The notes under the pieces were generated by a model that was not told the DNA's origin, made no database searches, and was given only the letters and a program-made list of their open reading frames with translations. Shown here one piece after another: positions 1,050 through 48,447 of a stretch of DNA of 64,000 nucleotides. The DNA is from Xanthostigma xanthostigma. Taxonomy: Eukaryota > Arthropoda > Insecta > Raphidioptera > Raphidiidae. Made by a program: the position numbers and the translations under genes. The stretch is taken from positions 47,151,201 to 47,215,200 of the forward strand of contig OY754470.1 in the NCBI GenBank assembly GCA_963575645.1, given 5' to 3'. Within the stretch, counting starts at the first letter, position 1. The number at the start of each line of letters is the position of its first letter.

Positions 1050-1135
1050 ATTAATGTATAGATCAAACTCTAGTTTGATCCTGTCCCTATTGCCTAAATT
1101 TGTATATTTAGAGCAATAAACTATTATTATTATTT
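1050..1135 (+). repeat. Probable LINE 3' tail ending in (ATT)n
   Basis: The stretch ends with GAGCAATAAACTATTATT and an ATT microsatellite. Short AATAAA-plus-microsatellite tails of this kind are typical 3' ends of insect non-LTR retrotransposons. No coding part is attached, so this would be a heavily 5'-truncated copy. It could also be an unrelated host 3' UTR. Confidence 0.35.
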
Positions 1136-1165
1136 AATTTGCGTTGATAAAACTACTTGAAAACT

Positions 1166-1427
1166 CCAAATCTTCTTGGTTTTCGGGCTTGTATGCCGTG
1201 GTCTATTATTAATTCTACCTAACGTTTCGTCTACAACTGCGGTAGACATTATCAAAGGCGATGTGGTAGCGGGCGAAGTGTTCTTCTAGGCTGCTCACAG
1301 GTAAGTGTGTGGTCTACTGGACTTGTAGACGAAACTTCAGGTAGAAATACCAATGGACTACGGTATACAAGTCCGGAAACCAAGAAGATTTGGATCAACA
1401 CCGGCCGTGAAAGCCTACACACTTGGA
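1166..1427 (+). mobile_element. Hairpin retroelement-like unit, copy 1, with hammerhead-like modules
   Basis: The outer arms pair (CCAAATCTTCTTGGTTTTCG against CGGAAACCAAGAAGATTTGG). The 3' tail from 1392 (ATCAACACCGGCCGTGAAAG and onward to ACTTGGA) is shared almost base for base with the copy at 45778. Inside are two opposed modules, each a 6-bp stem GTCTAC...GTAGAC followed directly by GAAAC. One lies on the minus strand (1229-1247, with TTGATAA on its 5' side) and one on the plus strand (1312-1335). A stem II followed by GAAAC is the hammerhead-ribozyme pattern known from Penelope-like elements and retrozymes. The CUGANGA box is degenerate here. Flanks GATAAAACTACTT and GATAAGAAGTACTT may be a decayed target duplication. 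Confidence 0.55.
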
Positions 1428-2010
1428 TAAGAAGTACTTTTTAGTTTGTTTTTGTTAACGTTTATTTTTGTAAATATATATTTTTACCATCGACAGAAAA
1501 CTGTTTTATCGGTTTTTTACATTATTAATCTAACTAAAAATCTAATATTGTCGATAATGAGTAAGTTGTTTTTTTTTATCTCGTTAAATTATGTCGTAAA
1601 ATTATTTTATGTGCAAGGAGCGGAAATGAGTTGCAATTATTGGCAGACATTTTAATTATAAACAGAAAAAGATGGACGCAGTACCGACTAATTGATTACT
1701 TATTTATGTAAATTTTAAAAATAATTCTGCAGCAGTTGTTTTACTCATATTTTATGTATTATCTAAAGTAATATTTTAATGTGTAACATGTACGTATTTA
1801 CCATATTTATAGTGTTTATATTAAGTCTATTTTCGCCAAGGAGCTAATGTTCATTTGAAATAATATAAAATTAGGTAAAAGAAACTTTTAAGTTAAACGG
1901 CTTTATTGTACAATCGATAATGTACTAAAAACTAGTAAATAATTATGAGTCACTAGTCTAGTTCAAATGTCCCTTTTTGATGAATCCAGTCCTCCTTCTG
2001 ATCATGGTGC

Positions 2011-33273: not shown

Positions 33274-33468
33274 TATATTATGACTACCAAGCTATTATAA
33301 TCGAAACATAAACGTAATGAAATCTAGAAATATACAGTGTGTCTATATTCAGGATAGACTAAAATATATACCTGTATATTTAGTCTATCCTGAATATAGA
33401 CACACTGTATATTTCTAGATTTCATTACGTTTATGTTTCGATTTTAAAAGCTTGGTAGTCATAATATA
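33274..33468. repeat. Near-perfect 195-bp palindrome
   Basis: Arms of about 92 bp (ATGACTACCAAGCT, CATAAACGTAATGAAATCTA, GTGTCTATATTCAGGATAGA) differ at only a few places near the outer third and meet with a few unpaired bases around 33367-33375. It lies directly beside the tandem array. It may be a MITE or the end of a larger element. Confidence 0.85.
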
Positions 33469-33474
33469 TTTTCA

Positions 33475-34020
33475 CGCAGAAAAGCAGTTTTACATGCTTC
33501 ACGACAATTAGATGCAATGGAGTCCTTATAGGCAAAATTGCTTTATTTTACAAAGGTAAGTCTACTCACACTATAACATTCAGGTTTGGATCATTCTCTC
33601 ATAAGAAAATGCAAACTGCATATTAACCATTATTATAACGCAGACAAGCAGTTTTTACATGCTTCACGACAATTAGGTGCAAATGAGTTCTTATAGGCAA
33701 AATTGCTTTATTTTACAAAGGTGGGGTCTACTTACACTGTAACATTCAGCTTTGGATCATTCTCTCATAAGATAATGCAAACTGCACATTTCTTATTATT
33801 TTCACGCAGACAAGCAGTTTTTACTTCCTTCACGACAATTAGGTGCAAATGAGTCCTTATAGGCAAAATTGCTTTATTTCACAAAGGTAAGTCTACTTAC
33901 ACTATACAATTCAGGTTTGGATCATTCTCTCATAAGAAAATGCAAACTGCATATTAACCATTATTTTAACGCAGACAAGCAGTTTTTACATGCTTCACGA
34001 CAATAAGGTGCAAATGAGTC
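33475..34020 (+). repeat. Tandem array, 165-bp period, 3.3 copies
   Basis: Anchored on CGCAGA.AAGCAGTTTT, the units begin at about 33475, 33639, 33805 and 33970 (spacing 164, 166, 165). Each contains ATGCTTCACGACAATTAG, TATAGGCAAAATTGCTTTAT and GATCATTCTCTCATAAGA. The fourth breaks off at GCAAATGAGTC, 34020. Confidence 0.9.
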
Positions 34021-45764: not shown

Positions 45765-45911
45765 TAAAGTAAACCCTCCAAATTTTCTTGGTTTCCGGGC
45801 TTGTATGCCGTGGAGAAATACCAATGGACCACGGTATACAAGTCCGGAAACTGAGAATATTTGGATCAACACCGGCCGTGAAAGCCTACACACTTGGATA
45901 AAGTAAACCCT
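45765..45911 (+). mobile_element. Hairpin retroelement-like unit, copy 2, with 13-bp target duplication
   Basis: The element 45778-45898 (121 bp) has arms CCAAATTTTCTTGGTTTCCG and CGGAAACTGAGAATATTTGG, then the tail ATCAACACCGGCCGTGAAAG and on to ACTTGGA. The flanks TAAAGTAAACCCT (45765-45777 and 45899-45911) match exactly. A 13-bp duplication without terminal inverted host ends points to target-primed reverse transcription rather than a DNA transposase. Compared with copy 1, the hammerhead-like interior is deleted. Confidence 0.75.
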
Positions 45912-47760: not shown

Positions 47761-48228
47761 ATAACCTCCTCCGTTTTTTGAAGTCGGTGAGAAGGGAAAT
47801 TTTATAATTGTTAAAATAAAGAAGCTACTTATTAATAAATAAAAACCCTGAGTTCATTTAAACATAGTTTTATAAAGTTTTAAGAATTTTTTTGAATGCA
47901 CAAAGTTTATTATACAAGCGTGCAACCTTAAAAAACAAAAAAAAACCACAATAATCAGCGATTGATTTCACCTCTGCACATCCGCTTCAACCTAGCTGAC
48001 CACTAATACTAAACTATTACTTTTGCCAAGGTCCCGGAACTGCAGACAGTGATTTGTTTTAACTTTGCTTTTAAGTAATTGAAGAACAATTTACTTTATT
48101 TCATTTATTAGTTTCAGACTCGCTGCATTTCACTTTACTTGTGTAATTACCCAATTGTTGATACAATTAATTCTTATAATTTTATATTGCGTGTACAACT
48201 TTCCATTATTGAAACATTTTTTTACATT

Positions 48229-48447
48229 AAATTAACAATATTGTATTTAAAATCTGAAGTTATAATCTATGAAAGAATATAAATATAATAATAGTTTTAC
48301 TGCTATTTTCAAAATGTAAGTTAGTATTTACTAGTTTAAATTAACAATATTGTATTTAAAATCTGAAGTTATAATCTATGAAAGTATATAAATATAATAA
48401 TAGTTTTACTGCTATTTTCAAAATGTAAGTTAGTATTTACTAGTTTT
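48229..48447 (+). repeat. Recent 109-bp tandem duplication
   Basis: Units 48229-48337 and 48338-48447 differ by one substitution (AAAGAATATA / AAAGTATATA) and one A in a run. Confidence 0.9.

Follow-up and report, generated by a model that had tools for sequence, protein, structure and literature searches.

A head-to-head inverted repeat in Xanthostigma xanthostigma read as a truncated Penelope-like element insertion, very probably made by two-ended target-primed reverse transcription

The unit at positions 1165-1429 of the window, by which we mean the whole 64,000-nucleotide stretch of Xanthostigma xanthostigma DNA that was analysed, is a truncated Penelope-like element (PLE) insertion in head-to-head arrangement, one whose candidate copies number in the thousands. 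We are confident that it is a severely 5'-truncated insertion and that it arose by two-ended target-primed reverse transcription. How PLEs integrate is poorly understood and such scars hint at the route of insertion, with the thousands of candidate scars forming a natural statistical record of the reaction.

The unit and its layout

The unit is composed of a 230-nt inverted repeat and a 35-nt tail. Its arms (1165-1247 and 1312-1394) are 84% complementary and a single strand of the unit is predicted to form a very stable hairpin (-138.6 kcal/mol, z -15.6), thus the foldback structure proposed in the initial annotation is confirmed. Each arm contains a pseudo-LTR (pLTR) and the first 85 or 120 nt of an open reading frame (ORF), the two being in opposite orientations. 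The site-1 arm (1165-1310, minus strand) carries the pLTR and the ORF start in antisense, from +85 relative to the ATG (at 1165) up to approximately -60 (at 1310), and the site-2 arm (1312-1429, plus strand) carries the ORF start in sense, from approximately +3 to +120. The tail (1395-1429, plus strand) is found at one end only and spans +86 to +120, from one putative start site of reverse transcription to the other. That this conserved tail is real, as had been suggested, is shown by aligning 21 copies, but it is not non-coding as was also suggested, since it continues the reading frame that begins at the ORF start.

The motif GTCTAC..GTAGAC-GAAAC was reported to occur once on each strand, and it does. 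On the plus strand it is a truncated copy (1312-1335) that retains only stem II and GAAAC, with GTCTAC at 1312-1317, GTAGAC at 1325-1330 and GAAAC at 1331-1335, its upstream core having been lost at the junction; on the minus strand it lies at 1224-1247 with TTGATAA at 1255-1249. The arm junction falls just inside TTGATAA on the other side, which is why the minus-strand module alone keeps it. The two opposed modules are not independent observations because the inverted repeat makes one follow from the other, and they are a by-product of inverted duplication.

The window contains a further member of the family, with a site-1 arm at 45777-45813 (minus strand, +85 to +49) and a site-2 arm at 45814-45900 (plus strand, +34 to +120), joined at a junction unlike that of the first. 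The target-site duplication (TSD) of this second copy, 45777-45900, is clear, the left one being TAAAGTAAACCC at 45765-45776 and the right one, at 45899-45910, overlapping the end of the element. No clear TSD was found for the copy at 1165-1429.

The family in the genome and its coding content

The genome that was searched has 623 Mb in 28 contigs. With 40 of its 3481 first-look candidates scored, the unit gave at least 84 matches at E<=0.001, so it is not a chance structure. In the 21 aligned copies, the window's included, the ends are sharp (TCCAAATC and CACTTGGATA) and the flanks are unrelated. Loci L002-L008 and L048, which duplicate other loci, and L001, the window's own copy, were left out before counting, with L001 entering the 21-copy alignment only.

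Longer copies extend into coding sequence. In L022 (2055-2619) the left arm continues, in antisense, into the 3' end of an ORF, and a genome search with this coding piece gave 1277 candidates, 40 of which were scored. Copies found in this way carry GIYRVPCTCGSVYIGTTKRSVKTRITEHK on the sense strand with YVDD further upstream, both being present in L055. A GIY..YIG motif is visible by eye in several copies, and as the endonuclease (EN) part has no GIY-YIG match in Pfam, PHROGs, NCBIfam or PDB sequences, its identity rests on motifs read by eye. The reverse transcriptase (RT) domain expected of a PLE appears to be present, as a 72-aa upstream piece of L109 that has the RT motifs MGNPLSP and YVDD matches RVT_1 at E 8.3e-06, with 26.1 bits falling below the curated cut-off of 29.6. 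Searches of Pfam, NCBIfam, PHROGs and PDB with the EN and RT pieces were otherwise mostly empty, with a weak NCBIfam match to an RT, Drt3a (E 0.0021). The number of first-look candidates drops from 3481 for the unit to 1277 for the ORF 3' end and 39 for the RT piece, as is predicted by 5' truncation, with the proviso that the query lengths differ.

Along the arms the order is the end of one ORF, the pLTR, then the ATG and start of a second ORF, MSTAVVDETSGRNTNGPRHTSPETKKIWINTGRESLHTWI in majority letters, read over 40 codons to +120. Judged from sequence, this ORF-pLTR-ORF order is that of tandem Penelope-like elements, and the family has the tandem pLTR, the inverted pLTR and a tail within the 30-40 nt range that mark such elements. 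The GTCTAC..GTAGAC-GAAAC segment itself forms codons 1-9 of the ORF, which starts at stem II and contains the sites at +85 and +120 that bound the 35-nt tail. The retroelement origin and the Penelope-like lead in the initial annotation are borne out, and the element has RT and GIY-YIG-like sequence.

Ends, target duplications and junctions

The ends of the copies follow a simple pattern. The 99 sources gave 64 two-armed insertions, and each of the 64 pairs an end near +85 with an end near +120. Whilst 40 of these were found with a query that holds both ends, the other 24 (12 + 12) came from queries that hold neither; if sites were chosen independently no more than half would be expected to be heterotypic, and by simple arithmetic 24 out of 24 has a chance of ~6e-8. 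When 20 loci of the 40 listed were read directly, 14/14 two-armed copies were heterotypic, and in another count over 40 loci, with TSD support, the figure was 13/14, loci without a recognisable far end being left unscored. The one exception in that count, the apparently homotypic copy L052, proved on inspection to be a spurious low-complexity match. Three heterotypic copies with imperfect motifs (L071, L072 and L081) were upheld on inspection.

Target duplications are variable in length, roughly 7-15 bp, and a TSD score of at least 8 was reached by 34 of the 42 tabulated copies (one of them, L046, mis-paired) compared with 2.5% of swapped flanks. The point at which the two arms meet is also variable, with 53 distinct junctions among 57 adjacent-arm copies. 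Four pairs of junction coordinates recur in this set (L009/L013, L020/L042, L011/L018 and L022/L078, the last at the reference edge). Compared with a simulated null, it is inserted sequence that stands out at the junctions, with filler of at least two bases in 12/41 against 5%, and blunt joins are few (3/41 against 45%). Microhomology is not clearly above the same null (overlap of at least two in 14/41 against 25%), and it was dropped as proof of end joining since it is not significant. The two arms may differ greatly in extent. A clear case is L055 where, at 757-800 (sense orientation), the +120 side contributes only 22 nt of cDNA, which is joined directly to the RT domain, the whole flanked by a 12-nt duplication. 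Not all copies are two-armed, as L091 appears to be a one-ended, 5'-truncated insertion.

Fixed ends, target duplications, a tail, variable junctions and coding content are all features of the sequences themselves, and the first two together with the variable junctions are what two-ended target-primed reverse transcription predicts. We infer the enzymology, the order of events and the joining pathway to be as follows. A GIY-YIG-type endonuclease of the element would cut both strands of the target in a staggered manner, leaving 3' overhangs that give rise to the target duplication. Both DNA 3' ends would then prime on the element RNA inside the ORF start, one at +85 and one at +120, and both antisense cDNAs would proceed upstream through the pLTR and sometimes into the ORF of the preceding copy. 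End joining would finally unite the two cDNA ends, producing a head-to-head inverted repeat with the tail at one end only.

One RNA or two

Whether the two arms of a copy were templated by one RNA can be approached through variants that they share. At +36, scored in 52 copies, 18 have T in both arms, 30 have A in both and 4 are mixed, so that 48/52 agree, with only 7.7 copies expected to have T in both arms if the arms were independent. Rare non-CpG variants common to both arms number 11, against a mean of 1.9 and a maximum of 7 in 200 re-pairings. The agreement at +36 and the common rare variants together indicate that the arms of one copy tend to derive from the same source element. This fits a single RNA, although two transcripts of one locus would look alike. 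Rare variants confined to one arm number 203 non-CpG and 51 CpG, against 11 and 2 found in both arms, and the minor variants at +47, +63, +78 and +84 are in both arms of 0/11, 0/9, 0/7 and 1/9 carrier copies respectively; variants in one arm only are taken to be later mutation.

The finding of one end of each kind in all 64 scored two-armed insertions suggests that the two strands share one RNA, or one asymmetric complex, when they are primed. A stricter form can be proposed in which each strand invariably has its own priming site, +85 for one and +120 for the other, whether on a single RNA or within an asymmetric protein-RNA dimer, with inverted pLTRs and a one-sided tail being the normal outcome of priming by two strands and not of self-priming. 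We regard the case for this stricter form as evenly balanced. It would provide a sharp and testable rule on how two strands share RNA.

Self-priming, or snap-back, is an alternative source of an inverted repeat. Here a single cDNA started at +120 would fold back and copy itself, leaving its last 35 nt uncopied. The accessible part of PMC3846280 puts it forward for inverted repeats of rotifer Penelopes whose junctions are palindromic, and some copies here (e.g. L028 and L021) do have palindromic centres. However, under self-priming the site-2 arm must contain the whole of the site-1 arm, yet the site-1 arm reaches further upstream in 45/57 adjacent-arm copies, and in L022 the arm limits are -415 and +56. 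The excess should be read with care, as the site-1 arm is longer in 35/40 copies of the first set, whose query is itself of that shape, and in only 10/17 from end-neutral queries (8/12 and 2/5); no claim is therefore made from the excess as such. Where the site-1 arm is the longer one self-priming is impossible, and the ruling-out is limited to such copies. The mixed copies at +36 also stand against a cDNA that copied itself, and overall we consider self-priming very improbable.

The hammerhead-like segment

The segment that drew attention to the unit (1224-1255, minus strand) comprises UUGAUAAU, a stem II of GUCUAC/GUAGAC, and GAAAC. Its position fits that of a PLE hammerhead, since the base of stem II is overlapped by the start codon and an NUH cleavage triplet, GUC, lies at +27 to +29. 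Stem II, GAAA and the GUC are conserved in the family, and stem II is paired. The core is a different matter, for it reads UUGAUAAU and not CUGANGA, with the canonical form in 0/129 arm alignments that hold the whole core. The C3 position is U in 131/132 letters, the G8 position is A in 137/139, and the family core has an extra U ahead of stem II. A change of C3-G8 to U-A could in principle keep pairing. TTGATAA had been taken as close to a CUGANGA box, and a consensus with the complete box and a GUH site was named as what would support the proposal; the cleavage site is there but the box is absent. Of the two features whose lack was to count against it, a paired stem II and the box, only the box is missing.

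Searches with Rfam models agree with this. No hammerhead was found at E<=10 in window 1100-1500, at E<=5 in 12 loci of the family or at E<=10 in 8 further family loci, and the whole window gave nothing at gathering scores. The models do detect hammerheads elsewhere in the genome, where a control that scored 73 of 81843 candidates found two places at 33.6 bits, just below the cut-off of 34; at one of these loci, L111, a minus-strand match of 35.7 bits is over the cut-off. Matches to miRNA families at low E in window 1100-1500 and the tested loci are far below gathering scores and were rejected; on the family itself they are taken to reflect the long hairpin. Folding is equivocal, in that a 45-nt piece of the consensus forms both stems, I and II (z -1.8), and a 73-nt piece does not keep this hammerhead-like fold. 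In the foldback RNA the module is also predicted to pair with its own complement.

Thus the module sits where a PLE hammerhead would, and the idea that it is a functional one is not supported. Going by sequence, this is the ribozyme site of a PLE in degenerate form, which overlaps the start codon and is probably inactive here, with weak protein-assisted cleavage unlikely. Stem-plus-GAAAC motifs within foldbacks should be treated with caution, as they can be the ORF starts of PLEs and not working ribozymes.

These results bear on the original proposal of a dedicated, small non-autonomous hairpin element, retrozyme-like in having two opposed hammerheads and spread from a hairpin master copy. Candidate copies in the thousands would suit such an element, as would the conserved stem II and GAAAC, the fold of the 45-nt piece and the four recurring junction pairs. 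A hairpin master copy, however, predicts common junctions where 53 of 57 are distinct, and the arms of longer copies run into PLE coding sequence; for both reasons the copies seem to be truncated insertions, each independent of the others, that derive from a coding element. The missing CUGANGA, the loss of the fold in the 73-nt piece and the lack of an Rfam hammerhead in the tested copies, although L111 matches, count against it further. In a retrozyme the hammerhead would sit in a small element that is tandem or bounded by LTRs, and here there is no canonical core and the 64 scored two-armed copies are head-to-head. The hairpin element is thus an explanation that we find extremely doubtful. 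As for a foldback or MITE-type DNA transposon, the small size and long inverted repeats recall one, but symmetric terminal repeats and TSDs of fixed length are replaced here by asymmetric ends with a tail at one side only and TSDs of varying length, long copies encode RT inside and no transposase-encoding relative with both ends was seen, which makes it scarcely conceivable.

Comparison with known systems

In twin-primed LINE-1 inversions both target strands prime reverse transcription and an inversion results. Two-ended priming in the Xanthostigma family differs in that both ends are at fixed sites and the arms overlap, the same region being copied twice.

The closest biochemical parallel is PAc, a Poseidon PLE of Anolis carolinensis. 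According to the accessible part of its description, RT begins at 111-118 nt of the ORF, the Penelope tail of 30-40 bp is the stretch between two RT start sites, the start codon lies at stem II of the hammerhead, and both strands are cut and extended in vitro (PMC11167929). PAc resembles the Xanthostigma family in that the tail separates two start sites near the beginning of the ORF. The hammerhead of PAc, in contrast, cleaves when protein is added, whereas the family core here is degenerate, and in that part of the account two-strand extension is not tied to inverted pLTRs (PMC11167929). In vitro, the strands did not differ in start site (PMC11167929), a result that, as far as the available text goes, neither conflicts with nor supports a pairing of sites within one insertion.

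The Penelopes of the rotifer Adineta vaga also have inverted pLTRs with the first ORF codons inside the pLTR and, in the portion of the source available, a 31-bp tail that one inverted pLTR may carry at its 3' end, with TSDs of 8-10 bp (PMC3846280). They differ in having a low copy number and in that self-priming was proposed for them (PMC3846280), whereas there are thousands of candidates here and two separate primings are argued for. Metazoan non-LTR retrozymes resemble the family in being small and non-autonomous, a few hundred bases long and perhaps mobilised by PLEs, although, as the accessible text describes them, they are tandem repeats (PMC7229834); the Xanthostigma family is head-to-head with no valid hammerhead found.

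Each of these features, inverted pLTR, tail and pair of start sites, is already known. No passage was found, in the accessible parts of the open-licence literature, saying that the ends of an insertion invariably come from different start sites or ascribing the inverted pLTR to priming by both strands. By analogy, and as far as those sources go, two-ended target-primed reverse transcription fits the two-strand extension and two start sites of PAc and also the rotifer inverted pLTRs, of which one bears the tail. Through the family, inverted pLTRs with a one-sided tail can be linked to what has been seen in vitro, namely two-strand extension and a pair of start sites.

Other observations

At L111 hammerhead matches occur on both strands within ~350 bp, at 1210-1256 (minus, the RF00163 match that served as control) and at 1489-1562 (plus, RF02275, 36.0 bits, below the cut-off of 52), and the locus has inverted arms at 1175-1233 and 1523-1581. 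It is nearer to what the initial annotation had in mind and is perhaps a retrozyme inserted head to head. The same sequence is found in L112, the two being identical over 3046 bases, in opposite orientation and ~41 Mb apart on one contig.

Other repeats are present in the window. At 2011-2562 there is an inverted repeat of ~550 bp with arms of 82 and 67 nt that are 85-87% complementary, for which no tie to the PLE family was seen. Tandem repeats are found at 33467-34020 (165 bp x 3.4, 89%) and at 48227-48446 (109 bp x 2, 99%).
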